A stretch of 64,000 bases of DNA from Thermococcus sp. (GTDB lineage Archaea; Methanobacteriota_B; Thermococci; Thermococcales; Thermococcaceae), in NCBI GenBank assembly GCA_027075325.1, contig JALTBN010000060.1, positions 156,010-220,009 of the forward strand, read 5' to 3'. Made by a program: the position numbers and the translations under genes. Position 1 is the first letter of the stretch, and each line of letters opens with the position of its first letter. This document shows, piece after piece, positions 5,471 through 22,501 of this stretch. A model generated the notes under the pieces. It made no database searches, had not been told where the DNA came from, and was given only the letters and a program-made list of their open reading frames with translations.

Positions 5471-5797
5471 TCAATCGAAGCTTGGCTGATAGCGGTACTC
5501 GATGTGAAGCTTGCTCTCCGAGTCCAGCTTCTCCATGGCCGCCAGCAGGGTCTTTCTGTCCTCCCTGGGCAGCTCCTCCAGAGGGAGCTTCATGATGTTC
5601 TGGGGTTCTATATCGAACTTCCTCGCGTTTTCATCGATTCCAAGGGACTCCTTGAGGAGCCTCACCGCTTCCTCGCTCAGCTCGCCCTCCTCCTCGATTA
5701 TCAGCATGTCGCCGGCGAAGTGGCCGGTTATCCTGGCCGAGTACTCCGGATAGTCCTCGAACCTGAAGCGGTAGAGCTTCCAGGGCACTTCAGACAC
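5471..5797 (-). CDS. Unknown last gene of the hydrogenase operon
   Basis: This protein is about 105-108 residues, acidic, without cysteines, metal motifs or membrane segments. It begins by overlapping the NuoB-like gene. A GTG at 5797 or 5788 can start it; GGGTG favours 5788. Its position after the small subunit is that of hycH in the E. coli hyc operon, whose product is a maturation factor, but I see no clear sequence similarity. It may be a chaperone or a peripheral subunit. Confidence 0.7.
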   Translation of the reverse strand: MSEVPWKLYRFRFEDYPEYSARITGHFAGDMLIIEEEGELSEEAVRLLKESLGIDENARKFDIEPQNIMKLPLEELPREDRKTLLAAMEKLDSESKLHIEYRYQPSFD

Positions 5798-6629
5798 CCG
5801 CCGTCACGGGATACTTCTCCTTGATTGCCTCCCCCCACTCGCGGTACTCCTTAACGAGGCGCCAGAACTCGTTCTCCAGGAAGCGCATGGCCACGTTTAT
5901 CCTTGAGTCCTTTTCCTTAAGCGCGTAGCCGGTGATGAGGTCGTGGAGCTTCTCCTGCGGGCTGTCCGGAGCTTCATCGTAAGCCCTTCCGACGAGGCTG
6001 ATAAAGCCCTCGAGGACAGCGTCGCGGTCGTAGTAGCCTACCACCCTTCTAAGTTCCTCCCTCAGCGTAAGCCAGTAGCGGAGGGGTATCGGCCTGTCCG
6101 GAATCCTGAACTTTATCTCGTTCTCTTTGCCCGACTCTTCCGCGGGCGGGAGGGCTATCCAGTACTCGCCCCTCATCTTCTTCTCCTTGATGCCGAGGAG
6201 CTGGGCGACTCCGTAGAGTATCTCCTCCGGGCTGGGTGGACAGCCGGGGATGTACATGTCAATGGGCACTATCATCTCGGGCCCACCGCTCCTCAGCCTG
6301 TCCCTTCCGCGCTGGGGCGAGGTGTTGTAGAGGGCATAGCTGTTGTAGAAGATACCACCGCTGCAGGCGCAGGTTCCTATCGCCACCACTATCCTGGGTT
6401 TGGGTGGCATGGCCTCGTAGGCCTTCTTGAGGGCTATCCTCGTCTGCCTGGTGAGTGGTCCGGTGATGAAGAGCACATCGGCGTGCCTCGGGTTGGGGAC
6501 GACTTTAACACCGAGCCTCTCGAGGTCGTAGTACGGGCTGAGGACGTCGAGGACTTCAATGTCACACCCGTTGCACGAGCCGGCGTCAACGTGATAGACC
6601 CAGACGGACTTGAGCTTCTGCTTTCCCAT
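5790..6629 (-). CDS. [NiFe] hydrogenase small subunit, HycG/NuoB-like
   Basis: This 279-residue subunit carries the proximal [4Fe-4S] cluster ligands of group 4 hydrogenases: SCNGCDIE near residue 19, GTCACSGG near 88 and PGCPPSPEE near 133. The last 110 or so residues form an additional charged helical region, longer than NuoB. The ATG at 6629 overlaps the upstream stop (TGATG). It should bridge the large subunit and the NuoI-like ferredoxin on the cytoplasmic side of the membrane. Confidence 0.94.
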   Translation of the reverse strand: MGKQKLKSVWVYHVDAGSCNGCDIEVLDVLSPYYDLERLGVKVVPNPRHADVLFITGPLTRQTRIALKKAYEAMPPKPRIVVAIGTCACSGGIFYNSYALYNTSPQRGRDRLRSGGPEMIVPIDMYIPGCPPSPEEILYGVAQLLGIKEKKMRGEYWIALPPAEESGKENEIKFRIPDRPIPLRYWLTLREELRRVVGYYDRDAVLEGFISLVGRAYDEAPDSPQEKLHDLITGYALKEKDSRINVAMRFLENEFWRLVKEYREWGEAIKEKYPVTAGV

Positions 6630-7258
6630 CACTCCTCACCCCCTCTCCTCTTGGGGGTCTTTTTGGATTTTTCAACGAGCATGAAAGCCGGGTATACGTT
6701 ACCCTCCGTTTCCCTGAGTTTGACGACGGTTCTGCGCATCTTCTCCTCCTGAGTCAGCTTTATCCTGTCCTCAAGGGCATAGGTGTCGAATATTTCCTTT
6801 GGCAGTATGTTCCTGACGTACTCTATCTGTCTCTCGGTGAAGTCGAGGTACTCTCCACATTCCTCGCAGTAGGCCAGTTTGTGCTCGACGACCTCGACCA
6901 GGTCTTCCTTGTTGTCAGTGGCCACCTCAAAGCGCGTCGTTGGTTCCATAGCACCGGTCGGGCAGACCTCTATACAGCGCGCACAGCGTATGCAGCGCGC
7001 CGCGTTGTAGGTGAGCCTTTTCACGCCATGCTCCTTGTCCCACTCCATTATAAGAGCGTCCGGCGGGCATGCGTTGACGCAGGCTCCACAGCCTATGCAC
7101 TTCTCGGGATTAATGTGCGGGATCCCCCTGAACTCGGGTGGCTTCTCAATGTCGATAAAGGGGTAAGGGGTGGTGACTGGGGCCTTCTTGCTGAACTTCT
7201 CGGCCTCGAAGCGGTCCCACTTCTTCAGCCTCTCACTGTAGGCCGGAGCCTCGGCCAT
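6629..7258 (-). CDS. Hydrogenase ferredoxin subunit, HycF/NuoI-like
   Basis: This 209-residue protein has two [4Fe-4S] motifs, CIGCGACVNACPP and CIRCARCIEVCPTGA, in the NuoI arrangement. An extra CEECGEY pair further on could bind zinc or iron. It passes electrons from the polyferredoxin to the small subunit. The start overlaps the large-subunit stop (TGATG); the longer ORF-track start lies inside the large-subunit gene in another frame and is rejected. Confidence 0.93.
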   Translation of the reverse strand: MAEAPAYSERLKKWDRFEAEKFSKKAPVTTPYPFIDIEKPPEFRGIPHINPEKCIGCGACVNACPPDALIMEWDKEHGVKRLTYNAARCIRCARCIEVCPTGAMEPTTRFEVATDNKEDLVEVVEHKLAYCEECGEYLDFTERQIEYVRNILPKEIFDTYALEDRIKLTQEEKMRRTVVKLRETEGNVYPAFMLVEKSKKTPKRRGGEE

Positions 7259-9057
7259 CAGAACACCCCCCGGTACTTGATGGAAAGCTCGTTGAACTCG
7301 GCCTCGGTGAGGACCTTCACCTTTCCGGTGTTCACGTCGACGAACTGCACCCTCTCGGTACAGGAGTAGCACGGGTCGATGCTCGCTATGATGAGCGGCG
7401 CGTCTGCAACGTGGTATCCCTTGAGCATCTCCGGAACAGCGGGCAGGTTGTTGTAGGTCGGGGCGCGGACCTTCCAGCGGTAGACCTTGTTCTTCTCGCC
7501 CGTCATGACGTAGTGAACAACCTCACCGCGGTGGGCCTCGGTGAAGCCCAGTGCCTCCTCGTACTCAGGTAGCTTTCCAATCGGAACCATTATGTCCCCG
7601 TCGGGCATCTGGTCGATGAGCTGCTCGACGATCCAGATGCTCTCGAACAGCTCGTCCATCCTGACGAGGACTCTGGCCAAAACGTCGCCCTCCTTGTAGA
7701 CCGGAACCTTGAAGTCGACCTCGTTGTAGGCGGTGGCAGTCTTAACGGCCTGATCCTTTCTAGTGTCGATCCTCCTTCCACTAGCGCGAGCAGTCGGTCC
7801 TAGAGTAGAATAAGCTTTGGCAACCTTGTAAGGCAGTATACCAACCCCCTCGGCGCGCTTGATGAAGGTGTTGGTGTTCAGGGCTATGTCGAGGAACTTC
7901 TTGGTCTCCTCGCGTATCTGCTTGACCACCTTGAGGACTTCCTCCTTCCTGTAGTCGAGTAGGTCCCTCCTCACGCCGCCGACGATGTTCATTCCGTACT
8001 GCTTCCTGTTTCCAGTTAAGCGCTCCACGAGCCACATGACAGGCTCCCTAATGCGCCAGGAGTGCATGAAGCCAGTGTCGTAGCCGACAAGGTGGGCGGC
8101 GATGCCAACCCAGAGGAGGTGGTTGTGTATTCTCTCAAGCTCCAGGAGGAGGGTTCTGATATAGCGCGCCCTGTCGGGGATTTCAACGTCGGCCAATCTC
8201 TCAACGGCCATAGCGTAGCTGACCGAGTGCTGGTAGCCGCAGATACCGCAGATTCTCTCCGCAAGGAAGAGCACCTGGTTGTATGTTAACCTCCCCTCGC
8301 CGGTCTTCTCGATACCGCGGTGGGAGTAGAAGCCGCGGTAGTCGACGTCAACTATCTCCTCACCCTTGACGAAGAGCCTGAAGTGGGCCGGCTCCTCGAT
8401 ACCCATGTGAACCGGACCCATCGGAACCAGCGTCGTGTCTTCGGGCTTCTCCTTGAATTCAACCTTCGGCTCGGTTATCGGCGAGTGCCTGTAGTCCATG
8501 TCCTTCCTGAGGGGATAGACGCCATCCGGAAAGTCCTCCGGGAGGATGAGCCTCCTCGGGTCCGGGTGGTTGAGGGGCTTGAAGCCGAGCAGGTCCTTCA
8601 CTTCCCTCTCTATCCACAGTGCCGCCGGAAGTTTCTGAGCCACGCTCGGGAAGCTTGGATCATCTTCCGGCAGGTAGGCCCTCAGGAAGACCCAGTAATT
8701 CTCGTCCATGTTGGCGAACTCCACCTGGACGTTAAGGAAGGGCATGTAGACGAAGTGGCCGTTCAGCGGTCTCTCATCAGTTCCAACTGCCGTTGAGAGG
8801 TGGGTCTCCTTGAACTCCGGGTGGTTGTGCCACCAGAGGACCGCCTCGGGAAGCACCTCGCGGTCGATTGTGAACATGTACTGACCGTAGGTCATCCTCT
8901 TACAGCCTTTGATGTGCTCCTTGAAGGCCTCGTAGAAGTCCCTGAGGCCCTTTCTTTCGGAAAGTATTCTTTCAACGTCGGCCTTCGCACAGCGGCCGTC
9001 CTCACAGGCCTTGCATTCAAACTCGAAGTGAGCCTCCAAATCCTTAGTCCTCACCAT
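7258..9057 (-). CDS. [NiFe] hydrogenase large subunit, HycE-like NuoC-NuoD fusion
   Basis: This 599-residue protein joins a NuoC-like domain (about 1-190) to a catalytic NuoD-like domain, as in E. coli HycE. The four nickel ligands are present: RICGICGYQHS and DPCYSCTER. A 30-residue tail starting VQFVDV follows the last ligand motif, as expected for a HycI-cleaved precursor. It is therefore a true hydrogenase, unlike complex I NuoD or Mbx-type enzymes that lack some ligands. The first 25 residues hold an unusual CKACEDGRC cysteine group. ATG 9057 follows GGTGGTG. Confidence 0.96.
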   Translation of the reverse strand: MVRTKDLEAHFEFECKACEDGRCAKADVERILSERKGLRDFYEAFKEHIKGCKRMTYGQYMFTIDREVLPEAVLWWHNHPEFKETHLSTAVGTDERPLNGHFVYMPFLNVQVEFANMDENYWVFLRAYLPEDDPSFPSVAQKLPAALWIEREVKDLLGFKPLNHPDPRRLILPEDFPDGVYPLRKDMDYRHSPITEPKVEFKEKPEDTTLVPMGPVHMGIEEPAHFRLFVKGEEIVDVDYRGFYSHRGIEKTGEGRLTYNQVLFLAERICGICGYQHSVSYAMAVERLADVEIPDRARYIRTLLLELERIHNHLLWVGIAAHLVGYDTGFMHSWRIREPVMWLVERLTGNRKQYGMNIVGGVRRDLLDYRKEEVLKVVKQIREETKKFLDIALNTNTFIKRAEGVGILPYKVAKAYSTLGPTARASGRRIDTRKDQAVKTATAYNEVDFKVPVYKEGDVLARVLVRMDELFESIWIVEQLIDQMPDGDIMVPIGKLPEYEEALGFTEAHRGEVVHYVMTGEKNKVYRWKVRAPTYNNLPAVPEMLKGYHVADAPLIIASIDPCYSCTERVQFVDVNTGKVKVLTEAEFNELSIKYRGVF

Positions 9058-9059
9058 AT

Positions 9060-9977
9060 TCACCACCCCATGAACGCCATTGCGAGTATTATCAGTCCCG
9101 CGAAGAACGCGCGGGTGTTCATCTTAACCACGTGGTCTATCCTGAGCCTTGCGTTCGTTGCCTCAAGTGCCGCTATAACCGGGTAGAATGCCACCGTCAG
9201 AACGAACTGGAGCGCCAGGACGAGTGCTGCCTTCTCCGGCGTGCCGACCGGCCCTATCCACGGGAGCGTCAGCAGGCTGACGAAGAACCACAGCAGGGCG
9301 AAGCGCTTGATGTGTATCGCGTAGTAGAAGACCCCCAATAGCCTGCCGCTGTACTCGCTCAGTGGCCCACCTATGACCTCCTGCTCGGCCTCGGCTATGT
9401 CGAAGGGCACGAAGCCGCTCTCGACGTAGAGGGCATAGGCGAGAAGGATGTAGGTCAGCACCAGCGAGGGAGTAAGGTGAAGCCCTGTCATTATTGTGTA
9501 GAGGTCAAGGGAGCCTGAGTTGTAAGCCAGGACACCGTAGAGTATCGCTATCAGAGGCTCGACGGTGAGGATTATCTGCATCTCCCTGGCGGAGCCGAGG
9601 TGGCTGAAGGCGTTCTGTACTGTCAGGCCCGCGAGCATGAGGAAGACGCTGACCATCAGCACCACGTAGAAGAAGACCACCAGGTTGAAGCCGAAGTCCA
9701 CTGGAACGACGTTGCCGTAGGGAAGGAGCAGGGCCGCTGAGAGTGCCGATGCAAGGGCGAGATACGGTGCCCACGTGAACAGCGCCCTCTTGGTGGGCTT
9801 AACGGAGGGCATGCCGAAGAGCTTTCTGAGGTCGTACCAGGTCTGGCTGAGCGGCGGCCCGCGCCTGTACTGGAGCCTGGCCTTTACCCTTCTCGCTATA
9901 CCGTCAAGGTAAGGCGGGAGGAAGAGCATTATGATGATGCCGGCGAGACTGAACCCGAGCTTTACGGCGGTTTCCAT
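9060..9977 (-). CDS. Membrane subunit HycD/NuoH-like
   Basis: This 305-residue membrane protein has about eight hydrophobic helices. It has the family signatures RVKARLQYRRGPP after the first helix and an acidic loop VPFDIAEAEQEVIGGP, which form the quinone-channel-like region in complex I relatives. It anchors the peripheral hydrogenase arm to the antiporter-like subunits. The ATG at 9977 is chosen because GGTGATGAAG precedes it. The large-subunit gene starts two bases after its stop. Confidence 0.93.
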   Translation of the reverse strand: METAVKLGFSLAGIIIMLFLPPYLDGIARRVKARLQYRRGPPLSQTWYDLRKLFGMPSVKPTKRALFTWAPYLALASALSAALLLPYGNVVPVDFGFNLVVFFYVVLMVSVFLMLAGLTVQNAFSHLGSAREMQIILTVEPLIAILYGVLAYNSGSLDLYTIMTGLHLTPSLVLTYILLAYALYVESGFVPFDIAEAEQEVIGGPLSEYSGRLLGVFYYAIHIKRFALLWFFVSLLTLPWIGPVGTPEKAALVLALQFVLTVAFYPVIAALEATNARLRIDHVVKMNTRAFFAGLIILAMAFMGW

Positions 9978-9987
9978 CTTCATCACC

Positions 9988-11982
9988 TCACAGTGCCATC
10001 AGTATTCCGATCACCACTCCCACGACCACCAGGGCCAGGACAACGAAGGTTCCGAGCCTCATTCCCGGGAGTACGTCGCAGGCTATCCTGAGGAACCTGA
10101 CGAGCGGCTTCAGCGCCTCCTCGTCGGCGTTGAGTATCTCGCCCATTCTGAGGTCGTCGAGGGTCTCAATCTTGGTGTATGGGGTGTCGACTATCTTGAC
10201 GAAGTAGCTGGCCATCCAGAGGTAAGCTCTCGTTATGTAGTGGATTATTCCAGAGCCAACACTGTAGAACCAGTCGCCGAAGCGGTAGAAGCCGTCTATC
10301 TTGCGCTCGTACTTGATGTAGTAGCCTTCCGCGTTGATCCTGTACTCGTCCCAGTCTATCTCAGTTGAGCCGCAGTCCCAGGGCCTTGCCTCCTTGCCGT
10401 ACTCCGGCTTCAGGGTGAGGTAGAATCCCAGCGCCAGGATGCCTAGGAGAATCACGAAGAGCACGGGGCTGAAGAGCACTGAGCCAAAACCAACCCTGTA
10501 AACGCCGTCCTCTATCGGGGCGTTGAAGACGTTGAGTATTCCGGTTACAGTCCCCGGGAAGATGCCGATTAGGAGGGTTAAGCCAGCGAGAATCCACTGG
10601 CCGGCAACCATCGCTCCGGGAACTTCCCTGACTTCCGAGTACCTCTCGCTCTCGCCGCCGAACTGGGTCCCGTAGAACTTGATGAATGACGCCAGCGTTG
10701 CCGCGCTTATCAGGGCGGCCAATACTGCTCCAAAGGCCAGGAGGAAGTCCCCCGACTGGTAGCCGGCCACGTAGATGAGCCACTTGCTTATGAAGCCGTT
10801 GAAGGGCGGAACTCCGGCTATGGCCAGCGATGCGAAGAGCGCCGCTAAAGCGGTCCACTTCATCTGCTTTCCGAGACCACCAAGCTCGTTGAGTTCAACG
10901 GTTCCCGTCCTGTACTCAACTGCTCCCGCGGAGAGGAAGAGGGAGCTCTTGAATATCGCGTGGTTCAGAGCGTGGAAGAGACCAGCGAAGGCACCAAGGG
11001 CACCTATTGCGCCCAGCGCTCCGCCCTTGGGAATGAGGGCCATGCCTATACCTATCCCAAGCCAGATGTACCCCATCTGACCGACGCTGTGGTAAGCTAA
11101 GAGCCTCTTCGCGTTGGTCTCCCTGAGGGCGTAGAAGGTTCCAACGGTGAGGGTTATCGCTCCAAGGAGAGCTACGGCGATTCCCAGGGAGTAACTTGTT
11201 CCAACCAGGCCCCAGACCAGAGCAATCAGGCCGTAGAGGGCAACCTTCTCCATTGCTCCCGCCATCACGGCGGAGACGCTGCTTGGGGCTGCCCTGTAGG
11301 TTTCCGCGACCCAGAACTGGAAGGGAGTTATACCTGCCTTGGTCATGAAGGCTATGAGGAGCAGGCCTCCAAAGACTATCTTGGTGTGGGTCGGGGCGGT
11401 TGCTAAAGCGGTCGCTATGCTATCAAAGCCCAGCTTTTCAAAGCTCCCGACGAGTGAGTAGGCCGTACCGAGTGCTAAGAAGAGCGGTATCGTGTCGAGG
11501 AAGTGCATGGTGATGTAGTACTTCGTGCTTGCATCCACGTCCCTCTTCCTCTCGCTGAAGAAGACGAGTATGAACGAGCTGAGCGTCATAAGCTCCCAGC
11601 TCATCACGAAGTACTCCATGCTGTTTACCGTGACGACTAAGGCCATGCTCGCGAGGAAGGTGTTGTATGCTATTGCGTACACCCAGCCCTTGCCGGCCTT
11701 TTCAAAGATGTCCATGTAACTTATCGCGTAGAGCGAAGCTGCCGTTCCAACGATACCGATTATCAGAAGGAAGACGCTTGAGAGATTGGTCACGTGAAGT
11801 GGGATCCCGTAGAGGTTGATCCTCTGGGGGCCGTTGGTGTAGACGTTGTAAACCTCGCCAAGGAGGAGCAGCGAACCGAGGAAGGCCATAAAGTTCGATG
11901 CCTTGACCGAGGCTTTGTAATCTTTAATGAAGCCGAGCAGGCCACCGATTATGAAAGCCCCAAGGGCGTATTCGATGAACAT
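9988..11982 (-). CDS. Antiporter-like membrane subunit, HycC/HyfB (NuoL-type)
   Basis: This 664-residue protein has the Mrp-antiporter core with about 14 helices: the SWELM glutamate in helix 5, GITPFQFW and the discontinuous helix, NHAIFKSSLFL with His/Lys of the central channel. A C-terminal extension contains RPWDCGS, typical of HycC/HyfB subunits. It probably moves H+ or Na+ as electrons reach the hydrogenase. No separate Mrp antiporter (mnh) genes accompany it, unlike some Thermococcus formate hydrogenlyase clusters. Confidence 0.92.
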   Translation of the reverse strand: MFIEYALGAFIIGGLLGFIKDYKASVKASNFMAFLGSLLLLGEVYNVYTNGPQRINLYGIPLHVTNLSSVFLLIIGIVGTAASLYAISYMDIFEKAGKGWVYAIAYNTFLASMALVVTVNSMEYFVMSWELMTLSSFILVFFSERKRDVDASTKYYITMHFLDTIPLFLALGTAYSLVGSFEKLGFDSIATALATAPTHTKIVFGGLLLIAFMTKAGITPFQFWVAETYRAAPSSVSAVMAGAMEKVALYGLIALVWGLVGTSYSLGIAVALLGAITLTVGTFYALRETNAKRLLAYHSVGQMGYIWLGIGIGMALIPKGGALGAIGALGAFAGLFHALNHAIFKSSLFLSAGAVEYRTGTVELNELGGLGKQMKWTALAALFASLAIAGVPPFNGFISKWLIYVAGYQSGDFLLAFGAVLAALISAATLASFIKFYGTQFGGESERYSEVREVPGAMVAGQWILAGLTLLIGIFPGTVTGILNVFNAPIEDGVYRVGFGSVLFSPVLFVILLGILALGFYLTLKPEYGKEARPWDCGSTEIDWDEYRINAEGYYIKYERKIDGFYRFGDWFYSVGSGIIHYITRAYLWMASYFVKIVDTPYTKIETLDDLRMGEILNADEEALKPLVRFLRIACDVLPGMRLGTFVVLALVVVGVVIGILMAL

Positions 11983-11988: not shown

Positions 11989-13425
11989 TCACCCCACGAA
12001 ACCTATCTTCATCACTATGTCTAGGGTGACCCAGGGCGCGACTATGCCTATGAGGATCAGCGTTACCATTACTGCACACATGAGCCTGGAGGAGTGGAGT
12101 TCAGTTGACGGTGCCGGTTCCCCGAAGAATATCTCCCTGAACCACAGCAGAACCACCACGAGGAATATTGCCGCGTCGAAGAGAACCGTTCCCGGGAAGA
12201 GCCATGAAGCAATACCCTGGGCGTGCCTGGTGCTCATGATGGTGAAGGCCTTGCTGAAGAACAAGCCGAGAGGCAGAACCCCGGCCAGTCCAAGGAAGCT
12301 GAGGAACCAGGCGGTGCTTGCCCATGGGAGGCTTTTTCTGATGCCCCTGATCATCTTGAAGTCCGTGGTTCCAAGGGAGTAGGCAAAGACGCCAACGCTC
12401 ATGAAGGCGAGGGCCTTGACGAAGGCGTGGTTCACCACCTGGTACACGGCTATCTGGAGTCCAGCGGTATGCCCGAGGAGCGCGTAGGCGAGGGTTATGT
12501 AAGCAACTCCGGCCTGAGCGATGGTGGAGTATGCTATGAGCCTCTTACCGTCCCTCTGAAGCGGGTAGTAAATCATCATCAGGAATATCAGCGCCACCGT
12601 GAGGAGGCCAAGGAGCCAGAAGTCATCCCTGCCTGGGTTCATGTACTGGATAACCCTGAAGAGCATGAAGCTGCCGAGAGGGACTATCGATGCCGAGTGA
12701 ACGTAAGCCGACGCTGGAACCGGACCTGCGGTTGCATCCGGGAGCCAGGAGTAGAAGAACAGCTGGGAACTCATTGCCAGAGCCGCGAATATGAGCAGTG
12801 TGAAGGCGGTGTCCTTGGTTGACTGGGCAAGTGAACCCATCCTGGCAAGCTCCTGGCCGTTTCCGAGGATCGCGGTGGCGATTACCATGAGGAAAACCGC
12901 CAGGTTGAGAACAAGGAAGCCCTTGAGGGCCTTGCCCCGTGCGTCCCCGTGGAAGTCAACGAGGTACAGCAGCGCTATCGCCATAAGCTCCAGGGCCACT
13001 ATGAACTGGACCAAGTTCGTGGAGTATATAAAGACCATCGCCGCCCCCGCCAGGAGACCAAAAAGGGCGTAGAACTTACCCTTTCCGCCTTCAAGGGGAT
13101 GGGCTCTGTTCTTTGGCCCCATGTAGTCGGCTGCGTAGAGAACCAGCAGGAACGCTATCAGCAGGGACGTGAACCCCATGAGGACGGAGGCAACGTCAAC
13201 GTTGAGTCCAAAGACCTCACCGAGGTTCCCACCACTGGCGTAGGCGTAGTGGTAGGCCTTCTCGGCCCCTCCCTGGAAGAAATCGTAGGTCCCGTAGGCG
13301 TTTATGAGGAAGGCGATGCCTATTATTGCCGAGGCAACTGCGTCAGCGGCTCTGCCCTCAAGTTTGTACATGAGGAGTAGCAGGAAAGGAAGCAGGGCCG
13401 ATGCGAGGAATACTTCTCCGTTCAC
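11989..13425 (-). CDS. Antiporter-like membrane subunit, HyfF/NuoM-type
   Basis: This 478-residue protein has the same core as the next gene: ALELMAIALL (helix 5 Glu), SWLPDATAGPVPASAYVHSASIV, GKRLIAYSTIAQAG and NHAFVKALAF. The presence of two antiporter-like subunits makes this complex closer to E. coli Hyf than to the single-pump Hyc. It starts with GTG at 13425, preceded by GGTGATGAAAG. A 51-base gap separates it from the polyferredoxin gene and holds a SurR-type site, hinting at an internal promoter. Confidence 0.92.
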   Translation of the reverse strand: MNGEVFLASALLPFLLLLMYKLEGRAADAVASAIIGIAFLINAYGTYDFFQGGAEKAYHYAYASGGNLGEVFGLNVDVASVLMGFTSLLIAFLLVLYAADYMGPKNRAHPLEGGKGKFYALFGLLAGAAMVFIYSTNLVQFIVALELMAIALLYLVDFHGDARGKALKGFLVLNLAVFLMVIATAILGNGQELARMGSLAQSTKDTAFTLLIFAALAMSSQLFFYSWLPDATAGPVPASAYVHSASIVPLGSFMLFRVIQYMNPGRDDFWLLGLLTVALIFLMMIYYPLQRDGKRLIAYSTIAQAGVAYITLAYALLGHTAGLQIAVYQVVNHAFVKALAFMSVGVFAYSLGTTDFKMIRGIRKSLPWASTAWFLSFLGLAGVLPLGLFFSKAFTIMSTRHAQGIASWLFPGTVLFDAAIFLVVVLLWFREIFFGEPAPSTELHSSRLMCAVMVTLILIGIVAPWVTLDIVMKIGFVG

Positions 13426-13476: not shown

Positions 13477-13977
13477 TCAGAGGACGAGGTAAGCCTTCTC
13501 GCCCTCCCCCTTCTCGGCCGAACTCTTCAGGTTGGCGACGATCTTTCCTTCCCTGTTCCAGAGCACCTCGTTTATCTCACCGAACTTAAGAGCCTCAGTT
13601 GGACATGCTGAAACACATGCCGGAAGAAGGCCTTCCGCCCTTCTGTCGGCGCAGAGGTCGCACTTGTCCATGATCTTGTTCTCCTCGTCGAGCTTTGGAA
13701 TCCCGAAGGGACAGGCAACGGCACACATGAGACAGCCGATACACTTGAGCGGGTCGAAGGCAACCGCTCCGTCCTCGTCCCTGAAGAGCGCCCCGGTGGG
13801 GCAGACGTTGAGACACGGTGCCTTCTCACAGTGGCGGCAGTTGAATGGGACTGTAAAGAGATCTGGGAACTCGAAGACCTTGATCCTTGCCTCGCCGTGC
13901 GTCATTTCACAGGCCACTTCACAGGCCTTACAGCCAATGCAGCGGCTGTAGTCCAGGAAAATCTTCTTGTGGGCCAT
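13477..13977 (-). CDS. 4Fe-4S polyferredoxin subunit, HycB/HydN-like
   Basis: This 166-residue protein has four cysteine groups (CIGCKACEVAC, CRHCEKAPCLNVC, CIGCLMCAVAC, CDLC...CVSAC) for four [4Fe-4S] clusters. It sits directly after the molybdopterin enzyme (10-base gap) and carries electrons from it to the hydrogenase arm, as HycB does. ATG 13977 is preceded by GAGGTGG; the ORF-track GTG nine bases upstream is part of that site. It is a paralogue of the ferredoxin at 363. Confidence 0.93.
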   Translation of the reverse strand: MAHKKIFLDYSRCIGCKACEVACEMTHGEARIKVFEFPDLFTVPFNCRHCEKAPCLNVCPTGALFRDEDGAVAFDPLKCIGCLMCAVACPFGIPKLDEENKIMDKCDLCADRRAEGLLPACVSACPTEALKFGEINEVLWNREGKIVANLKSSAEKGEGEKAYLVL

Positions 13978-13987
13978 CTCAACCACC

Positions 13988-16045
13988 TCACTCCTCCACC
14001 CTCTCGACCTTAGCGGCGACGGCCTTCAGCTCGGCCATCTTGGTTTTCTCGTGGGTCTCCTCAAGCGTCAGGAAGTTGACCTGCCAGTGCCAGGGCATCG
14101 CTATGACCCCTTCCCTGACGTGCTCGGTAACTTCAGCCCTGACGAGAACGCTTCCGCGCCTGGTTGAGACCTTGACGAGGTCGCCGCTCCTTATTCCGAG
14201 CGCCCTGGCATCCTTCGGATTTATCATGACGTACTCCTCGGGCCAGCGCTTCTGAAGGCTTGGACTCTCCTCGGTCATGGTGAGGGTGTGCCAGTGGCCG
14301 ACGAGCCTAAAGTTGGTGAGCCAGAACGGATACTCGCCATTGGGCATCTCCGGTGGCTCGCGCCAGCTGACGGGCTGGAGCTGGGCCTTTCCGTCGGCCG
14401 TCTTGAAGCCGTTCTTGAAGAGGACCCTGGTGCCTTCGCCGGGTTCACTGCACGGGAAGAAGCACCCCTCAAGGTGCTCCGCAAGGTACTCCGGTGTTGC
14501 ACCCTTGAAGACGGGGATAACGCTGTTTATCTCCCTGAGGATCTCGTCCGGGTGGCTGTACTTGAAGAACTCACCGAGGCCGAGCTCCCTGGCAAGCTCA
14601 ACGAGGATGAGCCAGTCGGGCTTTGCCTCACCTGGGGATTCAGCGGCCTTGTATGTCCTCTGAACGCGCCTCTCGGCGCTTATTGCCGTTCCGGTCTTCT
14701 CGAACCATGCCGCCGCCGGAAGGACTATGTCTGCATACATGGCCGTCTCAGTAAGGAATATGTCATGAACAACGAGGAAGTCGAGCTTCCTGAGCTGTTC
14801 GCGAACCCAGCCGCTGTTGGGGGCGGACTTGGCTATGTTGCCACCGACGATGTACATCATGCGTATCCTGTTGCCCATTTCCCTGATCATGCTGGTGAGA
14901 TCGAGGCCGACCCAGTCCGGGATCGGGAAGCCCCAGAGCCTCTCGAGTTCCGCCCTACCTGCTTCGTCGGTTACAGGCTTTCCAGTGGGGAGCTTGTCAG
15001 GAGCAATACCGGTCATAGCAGAGCAGAAACCGCACTGCGCTCCGGGGAAGACGCCGCTCCAGACACCTTCTTTGCCGATGTTGCCGGTTATCGCTATGAG
15101 GTTGGCTATGGCTATTGCAGTGTTCAGACCGTTCACATGCTGGTTCATACCCTCGTTGACGAGGAAAGCCGTCCTCTTGCTCGCTATCAGCCTTGCGACC
15201 TTCCTTATGTCTTCAGCCGGAACACCGCTTATCTTCTCGGCCCACTCCGGGGTGTAATCCTTAACCGACTCCTTGAGCCCTTCAAAGCCAGCGGTCCTCT
15301 CCTGGACGAACTCCTTATCATAAATCTCTTCATCGATGACAACGTTGAGCATGGCGAGGGCTATCGCCAGATCGGTGCCAGGGTAGGGCTTGAGGTGGAG
15401 TGAAGCATACTTGTGGCCCCTCGTTGAGCGCGGGTCAATAACTACCATCTCGGCGCCGTTGTCAAGGGCCTTCTCGATGTACTGGCCGAACATCACGGGG
15501 GCAGTCTCGGCCGGGTTGTGACCCCAGACCACTATAAGCTCGGCCTTCTCAATGTCCTCGAAGGGGTTGGTCGCGGCAGCACTTCCAAACACCACGGTTC
15601 TGGCGGGACTGTTTGAGTACTGGCAGTACCTTCCTGGGAAGTCGAGATGGTTGGTTCCAATCGCCTTGGAGAGCTTGTGGACGAGGTAGTTCTCTTCGAG
15701 GGTTATCTTCTCGCTTCCGAGGAAGGCTATTGCCTCCGGACCGTAGGTTTCCTTGATCTCCTTTATTTTCTCCGCGATTATTCTATATGCCTCTTCCCAG
15801 CTTATCTCCTCGAACTTTCCTTCGCCCTTCTCGCCGACGCGCCTGAGGGGCTTCTTAAGCCTCTGGGGGCTGTTGATGAACTGGTAGGAAGCCACTCCCT
15901 TGGGGCAGAGTTTTCCCCTGTTGGGGATCTTTGGATGGTCGTAGTCGAACTCTATCCTCCTGATGTAGCCGTTCACACTAACTGCATAGAATCGGCAGCC
16001 CACGGAACACCATGGGCAGACCACCGGAACCAGTTTCTCTGCCAT
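13988..16045 (-). CDS. Molybdopterin/tungstopterin oxidoreductase, FdhA-like but with a divergent active site
   Basis: This 685-residue enzyme has the N-terminal [4Fe-4S] cluster (Cys10, 13, 17, 47) and the whole bis-MGD fold, ending with a MPWHWQVN region and molydopterin-dinucleotide binding domain. The metal ligand appears to be Cys141 in GRYCQYSN. Formate dehydrogenases carry His after this Cys/Sec (His141 in E. coli FdhF) and a catalytic Arg (Arg333); here these positions read Gln142 and a SGVFPGAQ stretch without Arg. Operon context says formate dehydrogenase, but the substrate is uncertain. ATG 16045 lies 18 bases after a TetR-type dyad. Confidence 0.85.
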   Translation of the reverse strand: MAEKLVPVVCPWCSVGCRFYAVSVNGYIRRIEFDYDHPKIPNRGKLCPKGVASYQFINSPQRLKKPLRRVGEKGEGKFEEISWEEAYRIIAEKIKEIKETYGPEAIAFLGSEKITLEENYLVHKLSKAIGTNHLDFPGRYCQYSNSPARTVVFGSAAATNPFEDIEKAELIVVWGHNPAETAPVMFGQYIEKALDNGAEMVVIDPRSTRGHKYASLHLKPYPGTDLAIALAMLNVVIDEEIYDKEFVQERTAGFEGLKESVKDYTPEWAEKISGVPAEDIRKVARLIASKRTAFLVNEGMNQHVNGLNTAIAIANLIAITGNIGKEGVWSGVFPGAQCGFCSAMTGIAPDKLPTGKPVTDEAGRAELERLWGFPIPDWVGLDLTSMIREMGNRIRMMYIVGGNIAKSAPNSGWVREQLRKLDFLVVHDIFLTETAMYADIVLPAAAWFEKTGTAISAERRVQRTYKAAESPGEAKPDWLILVELARELGLGEFFKYSHPDEILREINSVIPVFKGATPEYLAEHLEGCFFPCSEPGEGTRVLFKNGFKTADGKAQLQPVSWREPPEMPNGEYPFWLTNFRLVGHWHTLTMTEESPSLQKRWPEEYVMINPKDARALGIRSGDLVKVSTRRGSVLVRAEVTEHVREGVIAMPWHWQVNFLTLEETHEKTKMAELKAVAAKVERVEE

Positions 16046-16063: not shown

Positions 16064-16081
16064 AATGACTGGTCAGTCATT
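16064..16081. promoter_or_regulatory. TetR-type operator at the molybdoenzyme/hydrogenase operon
   Basis: AATGACTGGTCAGTCATT is an 18-bp dyad with perfect 8-base arms around GT. It lies where the transcript start is expected, about 25 bases from the TATATAAA box, so a bound repressor would block the operon. The same core recurs upstream of the DUF302 gene and, with one change, upstream of tetR. Confidence 0.75.
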
Positions 16082-16170: not shown

Positions 16171-16764
16171 TCACAAACTTGAGGCTATCTTAAGGTTGTT
16201 TATTATGACAGGAACCACCTTCTGGAGGTAGTGCTCATCGGAAAAACCCAGACACTCCCTGGAGTGAAGGTAGTGCATTAAAGAAGCGATGAACATCTGA
16301 AAAGCTATCAGCGCATCTTCAAAGCCAACTTTGACGTACGCCGTGATCCTCCTGGCCCCCTCGCGCAGCAGCTCCGAACAGGACTGGGAGTAAATCTCAT
16401 CTATACCCTTCATGCGCTTCCTTATTGAGAGCATATGAAAGAAAATCTCGGCACGGTAGTTTTCAGAGTAGAACTCCAAGAACTCCCTTCCAAGCTGAAT
16501 GAGGTAGTCACCCAGGTTGGGGTAGCTAACGGTTATGTACGGATCCCCCAGGGAGGGCATGGCCATTATAGGCATCACTTCAAAGGCTATCTCTTTGATG
16601 AGGTCGTCCTTGCTCCGGAAGTAGAGGTAGAAAGTCCCCTTGGCAACGCCAGCTTTTGCCACAATCTCATCTACCGTCGTTTTGTCAAAGCCATTTCTAG
16701 CAAAAAGCTCCATTGCCGCTGAGACGAGCTTTTCCCGCGTCTTCCCAGGAGACTTGGTGGACAT
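16171..16764 (-). CDS. TetR-family transcription repressor
   Basis: This 197-residue protein has an N-terminal TetR helix-turn-helix (AMELFARNGFDKTTVDEIVAKAGVAKGTFYLYFRSKDDL) and a helical C-terminal domain for ligand binding and dimerisation. The internal ATG at 16764 fits the family start; the 30-residue upstream extension in the ORF track crosses its own predicted promoter and is rejected. It lies between the DUF302 gene and the hydrogenase operon. Matching dyads at all three transcription units make it the probable local repressor. The ligand is unknown. Confidence 0.92.
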   Translation of the reverse strand: MSTKSPGKTREKLVSAAMELFARNGFDKTTVDEIVAKAGVAKGTFYLYFRSKDDLIKEIAFEVMPIMAMPSLGDPYITVSYPNLGDYLIQLGREFLEFYSENYRAEIFFHMLSIRKRMKGIDEIYSQSCSELLREGARRITAYVKVGFEDALIAFQMFIASLMHYLHSRECLGFSDEHYLQKVVPVIINNLKIASSL

Positions 16765-16775
16765 CCTGGCACACC

Positions 16776-16789
16776 TGACCGTACAGTCA
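16776..16789. promoter_or_regulatory. TetR-type operator (imperfect) upstream of tetR
   Basis: TGACCGTACAGTCA matches the TGACTG-N2-CAGTCA core with one mismatch. It lies 12 bases before the tetR ATG and just after the predicted transcript start. This is the usual arrangement for autorepression. Confidence 0.6.
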
Positions 16790-16848
16790 CTAACCACTGG
16801 ACAGTTGTGGGCATAGAAAGATTTAAGCTTTTCTGTGGACAGGAAAAG

Positions 16849-16865
16849 AACCAAAAGTTGAAAAT
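16849..16865. promoter_or_regulatory. SurR-type near match upstream of tetR
   Basis: AACCAAAAGTTGAAAAT equals the reverse complement of the site upstream of hypF at 16 of 17 bases and differs from AACn5GTTn3AAC at only the last base. It lies about 20 bases upstream of the tetR TATA-like box (CTTAAAT on the minus strand). Confidence 0.35.
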
Positions 16866-16885: not shown

Positions 16886-17260
16886 TCAAAGAACCGCTGA
16901 GATTATCTCCTCGTCCACCCTTGCGACCTCCGAGAGGAGCTCGCCAAGCTCCCCCGGAACTATCTTCGCGAAGAGCCCCATGTTCATGCCGAAGACGTAA
17001 ACCCCGTCGGGCATCTCTATGATAGAGAACTTGCAGGGCATCATCGCGGAAATCCAGCGGTTCTCCGGTTTGCTGATGGCCCTGGTGGCAAAGTCCCTGT
17101 TGCAGACCTCGATGATGGCAAACTGAATTCCAACCTTCTCCCTGAAGTCGTACTCCCCTATAACAGTCCAGCCCACTTCCTCGGTTTTCTTCTTCAGTCT
17201 TTCGATGGTCTCCTCAAAGCCGTACTTGCTCTTAGTGCCCTTCACCATCTGCCTCATCAT
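16886..17260 (-). CDS. DUF302-family protein
   Basis: This 124-residue protein has the DUF302 core (an IQFAIIEVCN strand, AISKPENRWISAMMPCKFSIIE, and a YVFGMNMGLFAKI stretch). The family is small, soluble and functionally unknown, and is often found near redox genes. The start is ATG 17260 or 17257, since GGAGG precedes them; the ORF-track GTG is 18 bases upstream at the edge of the operator. It is the first gene upstream of tetR on the same strand and carries its own TetR-type dyad. Confidence 0.82.
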   Translation of the reverse strand: MMRQMVKGTKSKYGFEETIERLKKKTEEVGWTVIGEYDFREKVGIQFAIIEVCNRDFATRAISKPENRWISAMMPCKFSIIEMPDGVYVFGMNMGLFAKIVPGELGELLSEVARVDEEIISAVL

Positions 17261-17640: not shown

Positions 17641-17901
17641 ATGTGTCTCGCGACGATTGCGAAGGTTCTCGAAGTGAACCCAGAGAAGGGAACCGCATGG
17701 GTTGACTTCGGGGGCGTAAAGAGGGAAGCACGTATAGACCTCATGCCGGACATCAAGGTCGGTGACTACGTACTCATCCACACGGGCTTCATAATCGAGC
17801 GCGTTGATGAAAAAACCGCAAAGGAGATACTGAACGCATGGGAAGAGGTCTTCAAGGTCGAGGAGGACGCGATAGGCGGCTACTACTACCCGGGTGATTG
17901 A
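17641..17901 (+). CDS. hypC: Hydrogenase maturation factor HypC
   Basis: This 86-residue protein starts MCLATIAKV, giving the essential Cys2 after removal of Met, and has the family motif KVGDYVLIHTGFIIERVDE. HypC carries the iron centre between HypD and the large subunit. ATG 17641 is preceded by GGTGAG; the ORF-track GTG is that site. It is followed at one base by hypD, which HypC binds. A separate promoter with SurR-type site stands upstream. Confidence 0.96.
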   Translation: MCLATIAKVLEVNPEKGTAWVDFGGVKREARIDLMPDIKVGDYVLIHTGFIIERVDEKTAKEILNAWEEVFKVEEDAIGGYYYPGD

Positions 17902-17902
17902 G

Positions 17903-19027
17903 ATGGCCATCGAGGAAGTCGTTCAGCCCTTCAGGGACAGGGAAGTGGCCCAGAAGCTTGTGGAGAAAATCAAAGAGGAGGCCAAAACGCTGGACGGCGA
18001 GATAAGGATAATGCACGTCTGTGGCACTCACGAGGACACGATAACCCGCTCTGGAATACGCTCTCTCCTCCCTGAGAACGTTAAGGTCGTGAGCGGGCCG
18101 GGCTGTCCCGTCTGCATTACCCCCGTTGAGGACATCGTGGCAATGCAGCTCGTTATGAAGAAAGCGAGGGAAGAGGGCGAGGAGATAATCCTGACCACTT
18201 TCGGGGACATGTACAAGATCCCGACGCCCATGGGGAGTTTTGCCGACCTCAAGAGCGAGGGCTTCGACGTCCGCGTTGTCTACTCAATCTTCGACACCTA
18301 CAAAATGGCCAAGGAGAACCCGGACAAAACCGTCGTCCACTTCAGTCCCGGCTTCGAGACCACAACCGCACCAACGGCGGGAATGATAAACGCAGTCGTA
18401 AACGAGGGGCTTGAGAACTTCAAGATCTACTCCGTCCACAGGCTAACGCCGCAGGGAATAGAGGTCCTCATAAAGCAGAAGAGCAGGATAGATGCACTCA
18501 TAGATGCGGGCCACGTCTCGACGATAATCGGTGTGAAAGGCTGGGAGTTCCTGAGCGAGAAGTATGGAATCCCGCAGGTCGTTGCCGGCTTCGAGCCGAA
18601 TGACGTTCTGATGGCAATCCTCCTGCTGATCCGGATGTACAAGGAAGGCAACGCGAGGGTCGTGAACGAGTACGAGAGGGCCGTTAGGTACGAGGGGAAC
18701 GTTACAGCGCAGAGGCTAATCGATAAGTACTTCGAGATTGTCGATGCCAAGTGGCGCGCCCTTGGCATCTTCCCAGGAACGGGGCTTGAGCTGAGGGACG
18801 AGTGGAAGGAACTCGACATCAAGAACCTCTATAAAGTCAAGGTGCCAAAGAACCTGCCAGACCTTGAGAAGGGTTGTCTCTGCGGTGCGGTCTTGAGAGG
18901 ACTTGCCCTCCCGACCGACTGCCCGCACTTCGGCAAGACCTGCACGCCGAGGCACCCAATAGGGCCATGCATGGTGTCCTATGAGGGGACATGCAACATC
19001 TTTTACAAGTACGGCGTTTTGTTCTGA
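17903..19027 (+). CDS. hypD: Hydrogenase maturation protein HypD
   Basis: This 374-residue protein assembles the Fe(CN)2CO group. The signatures are all present: HVCGTHEDT, SGPGCPVCITP, TFGDMYKIPTP, GFETTTAPTAG and a C-terminal cysteine-rich region (GCLCGAVLRG, CPHFGKTCTP, GPCMVSYEGTC) that binds a [4Fe-4S] cluster. ATG 17903 is preferred to the GTG at 17894, which belongs to the GGTGAT ribosome site. Confidence 0.97.
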   Translation: MAIEEVVQPFRDREVAQKLVEKIKEEAKTLDGEIRIMHVCGTHEDTITRSGIRSLLPENVKVVSGPGCPVCITPVEDIVAMQLVMKKAREEGEEIILTTFGDMYKIPTPMGSFADLKSEGFDVRVVYSIFDTYKMAKENPDKTVVHFSPGFETTTAPTAGMINAVVNEGLENFKIYSVHRLTPQGIEVLIKQKSRIDALIDAGHVSTIIGVKGWEFLSEKYGIPQVVAGFEPNDVLMAILLLIRMYKEGNARVVNEYERAVRYEGNVTAQRLIDKYFEIVDAKWRALGIFPGTGLELRDEWKELDIKNLYKVKVPKNLPDLEKGCLCGAVLRGLALPTDCPHFGKTCTPRHPIGPCMVSYEGTCNIFYKYGVLF

Positions 19028-19053
19028 CACCAAAGGTTCAAAACTCCCCTATC

Positions 19054-19070
19054 GTTTTCAACTTTTGGTT
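19054..19070. promoter_or_regulatory. SurR-type site upstream of hypF, with a second core nearby
   Basis: GTTTTCAACTTTTGGTT is an exact GTTn3AACn5GTT, ending eight bases before the hypF TATA box CTATAAAG (19079-19086). A second GTTn3AAC core (GTTCAAAAC, 19036-19044) lies 9 bases upstream. Together they make an inverted repeat of about 15-base arms, which could also be read as a weak hairpin after hypD. Confidence 0.62.
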
Positions 19071-19118
19071 TTGGAAACCTATAAAGCCTCTGATTGCAAA
19101 GAAGGGACAGGTGAGAGG

Positions 19119-21437
19119 ATGAAGGCGTATCACCTTCACGTTCAGGGAATCGTTCAGGCCGTTGGATTCAGGCCCTTTGTCTACAGAATAGCGCATGAGC
19201 ACAACCTCAAGGGCTATGTCAAGAACCTCGGAGATGCGGGCGTTGAGATAGTGGTTGAAGGCCGGGAGGAAGACATCGAGGCCTTTCTCAGGGATTTGCA
19301 CCGAAAGAAGCCGCCGCTCGCGAGGATTGATAAGGTAGAAAAGAAGGAAATTCCGCCCCAGGGTTTCCCGGAGTTCTACATCGAGAGAAGCTCGAAGGGC
19401 GGTAAGGGTGGCGACTCGATAATCCCGCCCGACATAGCCATCTGTGACGACTGCCTGAGGGAGCTTTTTGACCCGACGAACAAGCGCTACATGTATCCGT
19501 TCATAGTCTGCACAAACTGCGGCCCGAGGTTCACGATAATCGAGGATTTGCCATACGATCGCGAGAACACCACCATGCGTGAATTTCCCATGTGTGACTT
19601 CTGTCGGAGCGAATACGAGGATCCCCTAAACAGGCGCTATCATGCTGAACCTATAGCCTGTCCCGTCTGCGGGCCGAGCTACCGCTTGTACACGAGCGAT
19701 GGCAAGGAGATAACCGGCGATCCGCTGAGGAAGGCGGCCGAGCTGATAGACAAGGGCTACATAGTGGCGATAAAGGGAATTGGGGGGATACATTTAGCGT
19801 GCGACGCGGCCAACGAAGAGGCCGTTGTCGAGCTGAGGAAAAGAACCTTCAGGCCACAGAAGCCCTTCGCGATAATGGCCGACTCCCTTGAGACCGTCAA
19901 GAGCTTCGCCTACGTGAGTAAAGAGGAGGAAGATGAACTCACCAGCTACAGGAGACCGATAATAACGCTCCGCAAGAGAGAACCCTTCCCCCTGCCCGAG
20001 AACCTTGCCCCGGGTCTCCACACCATCGGAGTCATGCTCCCCTACGCGGGAACGCACTACATCCTCTTCCACTGGAGCAAAACCAAAGTCTACGTCATGA
20101 CTTCGGCCAATTATCCGGGAATACCTATGGTCAAGGACAACGAGAAAGCGTTTGAAGAGCTTAAGGACATGGCCGACTACCTCCTCCTGCACAACAGGAG
20201 GATACTAAACCGCGCTGATGACAGCGTTGTTCGCTTCGTTGACGGGAAGAGGGCCGTGATAAGGAGAAGCAGGGGTTTCGTGCCGCTGCCGGTAGAGATT
20301 CCCTTCGACTACCGCGGCTTGGCCGTTGGAGCGGAGCTTATGAACGCCTTCGGCGTTGCAAAGAACGGGAAGGTTTACCCGAGCCAGTACATAGGCAACA
20401 CGGGGAAGCTTGAGGTTCTTGAGTTCATGCGCGGGGCAATAGCGCACTTCAAGAGAATACTCCGGGTTAAGGACTTTGACTTAATTATCTCTGACCTCCA
20501 CCCGGGCTACAACACGACGAAGTTGGCAATGGAACTGGCTAACGAGCTTGACGTTGAGCTCCTCCAAGTTCAGCACCACTACGCCCACATAGCGAGCGTT
20601 TTGGCGGAGAAGAACCTCGAATCTGCCGTTGGGATAGCCCTCGACGGAGTCGGCTACGGGACAGATGGAAACGTCTGGGGCGGTGAGGTGCTCTACCTGA
20701 GCTACGAGGACGTTGAGAGATTAGCCCACATAGACTACTACCCGCTCCCGGGCGGTGACTTAGCGAGCTACTACCCGCTGAGGGCCTTGATGGGGATTCT
20801 GAGCAAAATCTACTCCATCGAGGAGCTTGATGGGATAATAGGGCGTTGCTGTCCCAAAGCCGTTGAGAGCCTCAAGTACGGAAGGGTCGAGTTCAACGTT
20901 ATCCTCAACCAGCTCGCCAAGGGGGTGAACACGGCCTACTCATCCTCGACGGGAAGGGTTCTCGATGCCTTAGCGGTCCTTTTGAACGTCGCCTACAGGA
21001 GGCACTACGAGGGCGAACCGGCGATGAAGCTTGAGAGCTTTGCGATGAAGGGCAAGAACGACCTGAAGTTTGAAGTTCCCGTCGAGGGCGAGCTGATAAA
21101 GGTTGAAGAGCTGTTCCTTCAGGCTCTTGATGCAATCGAGAAAGCGTCTCCGGCGGACATAGCATATTCAGCTCACCTGGCTCTCGCGAGGGCCTTCGCG
21201 GATGTTGCCGTAGAAAAAGCGAAGGAGTTCGGCGTTAAGGATGTCGCGATAAGCGGTGGAGTCGCCTATAACGAGCTCATCGTGAAGACGATAAGAAAGG
21301 CCGTTGAAGCCTCCGGACTGAGGTTCCACGCGACGACGGAGGTTCCGCGCGGGGACAACGGGATAAACGTCGGTCAGGCCTTCCTCGGCGGCCTCTACCT
21401 GGAAGGCTACATGAGCAGGGAGGATTTGATGCTTTGA
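19119..21437 (+). CDS. hypF: Carbamoyltransferase HypF
   Basis: This 772-residue enzyme turns carbamoyl phosphate into the carbamoyl-AMP that supplies hydrogenase cyanide ligands through HypE. Domains in order: acylphosphatase (VQGIVQAVGFRPFVYRI, about 1-90), two zinc fingers (CDDC...CTNC; CDFC...CPVC, about 105-185), YrdC-like domain (about 200-380) and Kae1-like domain (HHYAHIASVLAE, ALDGVGYGTDG, SGGVAYN). ATG 19119 gives the usual start; the ORF-track extension crosses the SurR-type sites and TATA box. Confidence 0.97.
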   Translation: MKAYHLHVQGIVQAVGFRPFVYRIAHEHNLKGYVKNLGDAGVEIVVEGREEDIEAFLRDLHRKKPPLARIDKVEKKEIPPQGFPEFYIERSSKGGKGGDSIIPPDIAICDDCLRELFDPTNKRYMYPFIVCTNCGPRFTIIEDLPYDRENTTMREFPMCDFCRSEYEDPLNRRYHAEPIACPVCGPSYRLYTSDGKEITGDPLRKAAELIDKGYIVAIKGIGGIHLACDAANEEAVVELRKRTFRPQKPFAIMADSLETVKSFAYVSKEEEDELTSYRRPIITLRKREPFPLPENLAPGLHTIGVMLPYAGTHYILFHWSKTKVYVMTSANYPGIPMVKDNEKAFEELKDMADYLLLHNRRILNRADDSVVRFVDGKRAVIRRSRGFVPLPVEIPFDYRGLAVGAELMNAFGVAKNGKVYPSQYIGNTGKLEVLEFMRGAIAHFKRILRVKDFDLIISDLHPGYNTTKLAMELANELDVELLQVQHHYAHIASVLAEKNLESAVGIALDGVGYGTDGNVWGGEVLYLSYEDVERLAHIDYYPLPGGDLASYYPLRALMGILSKIYSIEELDGIIGRCCPKAVESLKYGRVEFNVILNQLAKGVNTAYSSSTGRVLDALAVLLNVAYRRHYEGEPAMKLESFAMKGKNDLKFEVPVEGELIKVEELFLQALDAIEKASPADIAYSAHLALARAFADVAVEKAKEFGVKDVAISGGVAYNELIVKTIRKAVEASGLRFHATTEVPRGDNGINVGQAFLGGLYLEGYMSREDLML

Positions 21438-21484
21438 GCAAAGTGTTAAATTGAAGGTGTATAGCAGTAAAGGGGGAATTGAGG

Positions 21485-22501
21485 ATGGGAGAGAAGATAA
21501 AGCTTGAACACGGGGCCGGTGGAGAAATAATGGAGGAGCTTTTGAGGGACGTGATACTCAAAACGCTGACCCTCAAGAGCGCCGGTGGAATAGGGTTGGA
21601 TGCACTGGACGACGGGGCAACGATACCCTTCGGCGATAAGCACATCGTCTTCACAATAGACGGCCACACCGTTAAACCGCTCTTCTTCCCCGGCGGGGAC
21701 ATCGGTCGCTTAGCGGTCAGCGGGACGGTGAACGATTTGGCCGTCATGGGTGCTCAGCCAGTGGCTCTGGCAAACTCGATGATAATCGGTGAGGGTCTTG
21801 ATATGGAGATCCTTGAGAGGGTTCTCCGCTCGATGGACGAAACCGCCAGGGAAGTTCCCGTCCCGATAGTCACGGGCGACACGAAGGTCGTTGAAGACCC
21901 GATAGAGATGTTCGTGATTACAGCGGGAATCGGGGTTGCGGAGAAGCCGGTAAGCGATGCCGGAGCCAAGGTTGGCGATGTTGTTTTGGTCAGCGGGACC
22001 ATAGGCGACCACGGGATAGCGCTGATGAGCCACCGCGAGGGAATAGCCTTTGAGACCGAGCTGAAGAGCGACGTTGCGCCGATATGGGACGTCGTTAAAG
22101 CCGTCGCCGAGGAAATAGGCTGGGAGAAGGTCCACGCGATGAAAGACCCGACGAGGGCCGGTTTGAGCAACGCCCTTAACGAGATCGCTCGTAAGAGCAA
22201 CGTGGGAATCCTCGTGAGGGAAGCGAATATTCCAATAAGACCCGAGGTCAGGGCCGCGAGCGAGATGCTCGGCATAAGCCCATACGACGTTGCCAACGAG
22301 GGCAAAGTGGTGATGGTGATAGCGAGAGACTACGCGGAAGACGCTCTGAAGGCAATGAGAAGAACCGAGAAGGGAAAGAACGCCGCGATAATCGGTGAGG
22401 TAATAGAAGAGTACAGGGGAAAGGTTATCCTTGAGACGGGAATCGGTGGGAAACGCTTTATGGAGCCGCCCGAGGGCGACCCCGTGCCGAGGATATGCTG
22501 A
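21485..22501 (+). CDS. hypE: Hydrogenase maturation protein HypE
   Basis: This 338-residue PurM-like protein dehydrates the HypF-made thiocarboxamide to thiocyanate on its C-terminal cysteine. It begins IKLEHGAGGEIMEELL, has DDGATIPFGD and TGDTKVVE motifs, and ends with the diagnostic PRIC. ATG 21485 follows GGGGGAATTGAGG. It lies 47 bases after hypF, so the two are likely co-transcribed. Confidence 0.97.
   Translation: MGEKIKLEHGAGGEIMEELLRDVILKTLTLKSAGGIGLDALDDGATIPFGDKHIVFTIDGHTVKPLFFPGGDIGRLAVSGTVNDLAVMGAQPVALANSMIIGEGLDMEILERVLRSMDETAREVPVPIVTGDTKVVEDPIEMFVITAGIGVAEKPVSDAGAKVGDVVLVSGTIGDHGIALMSHREGIAFETELKSDVAPIWDVVKAVAEEIGWEKVHAMKDPTRAGLSNALNEIARKSNVGILVREANIPIRPEVRAASEMLGISPYDVANEGKVVMVIARDYAEDALKAMRRTEKGKNAAIIGEVIEEYRGKVILETGIGGKRFMEPPEGDPVPRIC

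Follow-up and report, generated by a model that had tools for sequence, protein, structure and literature searches.

The FdhA-like subunit of a Thermococcus hydrogenase operon oxidises, in our preferred reading, a low-potential donor other than formate in a rebuilt pocket, and belongs to a derived subfamily within the formate dehydrogenases (FDHs) of the Thermococcales. We put the probability of this reading at about 55%. Judged at the sequence level, the ligands for a Cys-bound Mo/W-bis-pyranopterin and for the Fe4S4 wire are kept. The formate pocket, in turn, has been rebuilt: Gln and Pro replace the His and Arg pair, Ala replaces Gln335, and two neighbouring loop positions are filled by bulky hydrophobic residues.

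The operon lies in a stretch of 64,000 nucleotides (the window) on contig C60 of a Thermococcus draft genome of 2.30 Mb. On the minus strand the gene order is TetR, fdhA, fdhB, mhyC-D-E-F-G-H and a MhyI-like open reading frame (Table 1; the name MhyI is from PMC2718504), an arrangement familiar from published 'formate hydrogenlyase' (FHL) operons of the Thermococcales. Both CxxC motifs of the large subunit are present, as are NuoB-like, NuoH-like and antiporter-like subunits and a HycB-like wire, which makes the operon a member of the group 4 [NiFe] hydrogenase complexes of the Mhy/Hyc type. Its electron-transfer and hydrogenase subunits are predicted to be intact.

Table 1. Features of the operon and its surroundings, in positions of the window.
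Feature	Position	Strand	Remarks
MhyI-like small ORF	5471..5797	-	after mhyH in types I-III (conserved position); without Pfam family
MhyH	5790..6632	-	hydrogenase small subunit (NuoB-like)
MhyG	6629..7372	-	HycF/NuoI-like ferredoxin subunit; true start probably further in
MhyF	7258..9066	-	[NiFe] hydrogenase large subunit; Ni-binding motifs CGIC and DPCYSC present
MhyE	9060..9986	-	NuoH-like membrane subunit
MhyD	9988..11982	-	antiporter-like membrane subunit (hydrogenase 4 subunit B-like)
MhyC	11989..13425	-	antiporter-like membrane subunit (hydrogenase 4 subunit D-like)
FdhB	13477..13986	-	HycB-like electron-transfer subunit, 169 aa; Fer4_11 and further 4Fe-4S domains
FdhA	13988..16045	-	FdhA-like catalytic subunit, 685 aa, CQ/PGA type I; Molybdopterin, Fe4S4 and MGD-binding Pfam domains, NCBIfam, tree
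Codons Pro334-Gly335-Ala336	15038..15046	-	stand in place of FDH Arg-Gly-Gln
Codon Arg149 (= FdhF Leu148)	15599..15601	-	Arg/Lys throughout the clade; every canonical FDH has Leu
Codons Cys141-Gln142	15620..15625	-	metal ligand, then Gln where FDHs have His
Palindrome AATGACTGGTCAGTCATT	16064..16081	.	18 bp, about 20 bases before fdhA; putative TetR operator
TetR/AcrR regulator	16171..16854	-	PF00440; same direction, upstream of fdhA; conserved neighbour
hypD-hypF-hypE	17894..22501	+	[NiFe] hydrogenase maturation; divergent neighbours of the operon

We aligned the window FdhA with FdhF of E. coli and with FDHs of solved structure. Both catalytic loops align without gaps: RVUHGPSVAGL of FdhF stands opposite RYCQYSNSPAR in the first loop, and GVNPVRGQNNVQG opposite WSGVFPGAQCGFC in the second. 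U140, H141, R333 and Q335 of FdhF correspond to C141, Q142, P334 and A336 of the window protein, which reads GRYCQYSN around Cys141-Gln142 and SGVFPGAQCGFC around Pro334-Gly335-Ala336. The original prediction, that the Cys ligand is kept, that Gln follows it where FDHs have His and that Arg is missing from the region of FdhF 333, is borne out by this alignment. The loop that reads PVRGQN in FdhF does align, with Pro exactly at the Arg. Because both loops are gapless, we reject, at least in sequence terms, a displaced His or Arg that takes the same positions and rescues the site. Arg149 might be a new cation near the site and could compensate for the lost charge. An AlphaFold model of the window FdhA, built on a 9-sequence alignment only, reached a pLDDT of 44 and a pTM of 0.33, values too low to support modelling of the pocket or a fold search.

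FdhA with this combination of residues (the Q/P/A type) is found in 39 of 94 Thermococcaceae genomes, in three of the 39 as fragments. Gln, Pro and Ala are invariant in 43 of 43 rows, which represent 37 distinct loci (6 rows are repeat fetches), whereas the canonical FDHs compared have His, Arg and Gln in 30 of 30. The same residues in 37 distinct relatives of a deep clade can be put down neither to chance nor to sequencing error. The Fe4S4 cysteines, the relay Lys44 and the Cys metal ligand are kept in 100% of the clade. Four subtypes can be told apart: I, that of the window (CQYSN, [FI]PGA[QN]C), II (CQSSN, IPGAHC), III (CQST[AS]V, IPGAHN) and IV (CQSTVF, IPGAYN). Together they are monophyletic, on a long stem and nested among the Thermococcales FDHs, with a support of 100 (SH-aLRT, the only support computed for this quick tree). 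In types I and II a CG[FYL]C motif directly follows PGA[QNH] (window 15023-15034, residues 338-341); it is absent from types III and IV, and is possibly a redox-active pair near the metal site.

The changes are concentrated in the two catalytic loops. Of 141 positions that are invariant in FDHs, 16 lie in these loops, and 10 of them have switched, compared with 8 of the remaining 125 (Fisher p 4e-7). Several new residues are strictly kept: Arg or Lys at FdhF Leu148, a bulky W, M or F at 328, and F, M, L or Y at 339. This strict conservation, together with a dN/dS of 0.04-0.085, similar to that of true FHL, rules out gene decay, and the site of the clade reads as a constrained new pocket.

The best NCBIfam match of the window FdhA is Fdh-alpha (TIGR01591), at 659.3 bits under a curated cut-off of 666.25. 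Type II scores 655, also below the cut-off, types III and IV score 713 and 690, above it, and the canonical paralogues score 805 to 935. Most of the clade FdhA stays FDH-like, with types III and IV passing the Fdh-alpha cut-off. To speak of a molybdo- or tungsto-enzyme of a new kind was too strong: the clade is a derived subclade of Thermococcales FDHs, and the operon has already been described. The window genome also holds two canonical relatives, on contigs C42 (RLCHSST, PMRGQN) and C43 (RLCHEAS, PMRGQN).

Outside the Thermococcaceae we found no member of the clade. A contig scan with strict patterns matched Thermococci records only, the six non-Thermococcaceae genomes sampled in a phylum search gave canonical CH/RGQ proteins only, and all plasmid matches were under 60% identity and mostly annotated as FDH. 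A wider distribution is possible.

How much the lost residues say about the substrate can be judged from related enzymes. The Arg is regarded as the binding site of formate or CO2, and an FDH of R. capsulatus in which His and Arg were exchanged for Met and Thr, with an added Arg, gained nitrate reductase activity (PMC10385643). The pair thus helps to set specificity, and its loss would predict another substrate, although it does not prove one. The nitrate reductases NapA and NasC likewise have a Cys-ligated bis-MGD and lack the FDH His and Arg, but they have Met and Thr at these sites where the window FdhA has Gln and Pro. Their profiles fit poorly as well (NasC 488 bits against a cut-off of 1100, NapA 307 against 904). 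ForCE of B. subtilis has Gln for His and yet oxidises formate; it keeps the Arg and gains a His at 335 (PMC8808070). Since ForC uses formate with Gln, strong evidence comes only from the loss of the Arg and the remodelled loop. The Gln after the Cys ligand is the sole feature that the window FdhA shares with ForC, which has an N-terminal Fe-S extension, ForE as partner and menaquinone as acceptor; in the window protein Arg is replaced by Pro, the His of ForC by Ala, and there is no extension (685 aa).

The operon belongs to a known family, the 'Group 4 fhl' or fdh1-mfh1-mnh1 operons (TON_0266-0282 in T. onnurineus), and its paralogy is known too. Gene order, upstream TetR and neighbouring hyp genes are all shared. 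So far the family has been recognised only as an annotated paralogue of FHL. One Q/P/A locus in our set (L045) is presumably T. onnurineus fdh1 (TON_0281), an identity that we take from gene order and position. The TetR gene upstream is the published mark of such operons (PMC10025317). The canonical Group 1A FHL (Fdh2-Mfh2-Mnh2 of T. onnurineus) resembles them in that FdhA and FdhB deliver electrons to a group 4 [NiFe] hydrogenase that includes antiporter subunits. It differs in having CH...RGQN and a formate transporter, whereas the clade reads CQ...PGA, comes with a TetR and a palindrome of its own, and lacks a transporter gene in its operon. The window operon, with neither a canonical FDH site nor a transporter gene, falls outside Group 1A.

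Published physiology of the orthologues does not fit a formate enzyme. For growth of T. onnurineus on formate only fdh2 is needed ('solely essential'), and fdh1 gives no support (PMC5522443). The Group 4 operon of T. paralvinellae falls on formate, and the formate users among the strains surveyed are exactly those with a formate transporter (PMC10025317). In our genomes FocA goes together with those canonical FDHs that are linked to a hydrogenase or to NAD (21 of 28 genomes; p = 5e-14). Where the Q/P/A type occurs without a listed canonical FDH of these kinds, a formate transporter is missing from 19 of 20 genomes; the exception, G088, is an incomplete draft. In both counts the matches were assigned to groups by identity. 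In the window genome FocA lies on another contig, about 10 kb from the canonical hydrogenase-type FDH, and no pyruvate formate-lyase was found. For the sulfuration of FDH cofactors FdhD is considered necessary; the whole genome G000 gave no match to it (PF02634), despite two canonical FDH subunits. None of the searches for FdhD, FocA and pyruvate formate-lyase gave a pointer to the substrate. That growth on formate fails may be due simply to a missing transporter or to weak expression of fdh1.

One alternative survives best. The subunit could still be an FDH with an altered site, which disposes of (or makes) formate inside the cell and needs no transporter. Gln would then stand in for His, as it does in ForC, and the part of Arg333 would fall to Arg/Lys149 or to the main chain. 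The ForC precedent, the conservation of Arg/Lys149, the overall similarity to FDHs and the nesting within them agree with this, as does the finding of Fdh1 proteins in sulfur-grown T. onnurineus, for which the authors proposed formate removal (PMC4463584). However, Arg and Gln335 are lost together in every member of the clade, whereas ForC keeps its Arg within RGH; the operon of T. paralvinellae responds to formate in the wrong direction (PMC10025317); and the window genome already has a canonical hydrogenase-type FDH with FocA, and no pyruvate formate-lyase. We consider a retained formate activity unlikely. The proposal of a non-formate substrate therefore stands in part: the constrained loss throughout the clade, the kept cofactor site and the orthologue physiology speak for it, while the Gln for His is by itself compatible with formate.

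Relatives without a substrate reaction are known, namely NuoG, which relays electrons in complex I, and QrcB. With two catalytic residues lost and weaker NCBIfam matches to these relatives, the window FdhA could be such a subunit, with a dead or non-redox site, and only relay electrons (for example from ferredoxin) into the hydrogenase. But the invariant Cys ligand, Lys44 and Fe4S4 ligands and the strictly conserved loop residues point to a working pocket, and dN/dS is the same as in active FHL, so that a mere relay is very unlikely. A complex running in reverse, with H2 driving the reduction of, for example, a sulfur compound or a disulfide, would suit the CG[FYL]C motif of types I and II and the Fdh1-type proteins of sulfur-grown T. 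onnurineus (PMC4463584), but it is just as improbable, since the motif does not occur in types III and IV, among them the protein inferred to be T. onnurineus Fdh1, the antiporter-like Mhy subunits are those of H2-evolving, energy-conserving complexes, and the lineage offers no precedent for a reductase.

The Arg appears to have been lost a second time. Locus L067 is presumably the fdh-mhy operon of T. litoralis, which has been described as FHL. Its subunit masses (FdhA 71.6, MhyF 62.4, MhyH 29.6 kDa) are those given in PMC2432063. It has the same eight-gene plan, fdhAB-mhyCDEFGH, and an FdhA that also lacks the Arg, with Ala at the Arg333 site (LAGQNN), but the His is kept (CHG), and the window-type palindrome is missing. 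We had to reject a common clade with the window FdhA: the T. litoralis type (L067-L071, five genomes) forms a separate CH/AGQ clade on a very long stem, sister to the Group 1A FdhA (SH-aLRT 99). By this tree, the T. litoralis lineage lost the same Arg independently. Formate-driven H2 evolution in T. litoralis was 'not fully reproducible', and expression of its operon increases over tenfold on peptides (PMC2432063).

The palindrome before fdhA is found at the same distance, with 0-4 mismatches, in all of types I-IV that have the operon; shuffled sequences give a mean of about 7.6 mismatches and rarely 4. It is absent (7-9 mismatches) before canonical FDH operons, T. litoralis-type operons and an orphan fdhA copy. 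At up to 2 mismatches it has a single copy in the window genome. In genome G020 there is a second copy about 900 bases further upstream, before tetR. We infer that the palindrome is the operator of the TetR regulator, which would then be dedicated to the fdhA promoter and probably sense the donor or a related metabolite. The TetR gene, the MhyI-like ORF and the palindrome had all been missing from the original prediction.

For our preferred reading, oxidation of a non-formate donor, the following scheme can be drawn. The donor is probably neutral, without a carboxylate, and made inside the cell during fermentation. Its electrons would pass from FdhB to MhyG/H and on to the group 4 [NiFe] hydrogenase MhyF, which would evolve H2, with MhyC/D/E translocating ions. 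Our lead candidate for the donor is an aldehyde, or some other small carbonyl, released when amino acids are broken down. An aldehyde would suit a pocket without charge and the low potential that is required; we hold this candidate weakly and think it rather doubtful. The wider idea of a 'non-formate hydrogenlyase' that evolved from FHL, in which Mo/W-dependent oxidation of an organic donor is coupled to group 4 H2 evolution, with a parallel origin in T. litoralis, comes close to an even chance and is offered tentatively.

Annotation and reviews treat such operons as FHL and deduce from them that vent archaea metabolise formate. Should the site be unable to use formate, this deduction no longer holds for about 40% of Thermococcaceae genomes. 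The failure of fdh1 to support growth on formate would be explained as well, and another H2-linked energy-conserving reaction would be left to be found. With two independent losses of the Arg, the question is directly testable by assay and residue exchange. The open literature searched held no mention of the missing catalytic pair, of a parallel loss of the Arg in the T. litoralis type or of the palindrome.

Three loci deserve separate mention. Between tetR and hypD the window holds a DUF302 protein (16886-17278), a counterpart of which, at 55% identity, adjoins the type I operon in L036. The orphan copy, L047 (G089:C2), is a type IV FdhA-FdhB pair that has neither a hydrogenase module next to it nor the palindrome. 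In L046 (G039:C5) a type IV FdhA, 57% identical to that of the window, stands beside a hydrogenase module that is 76-86% identical to the type I module of the window, which suggests that the dehydrogenase subunit has been exchanged between operons.
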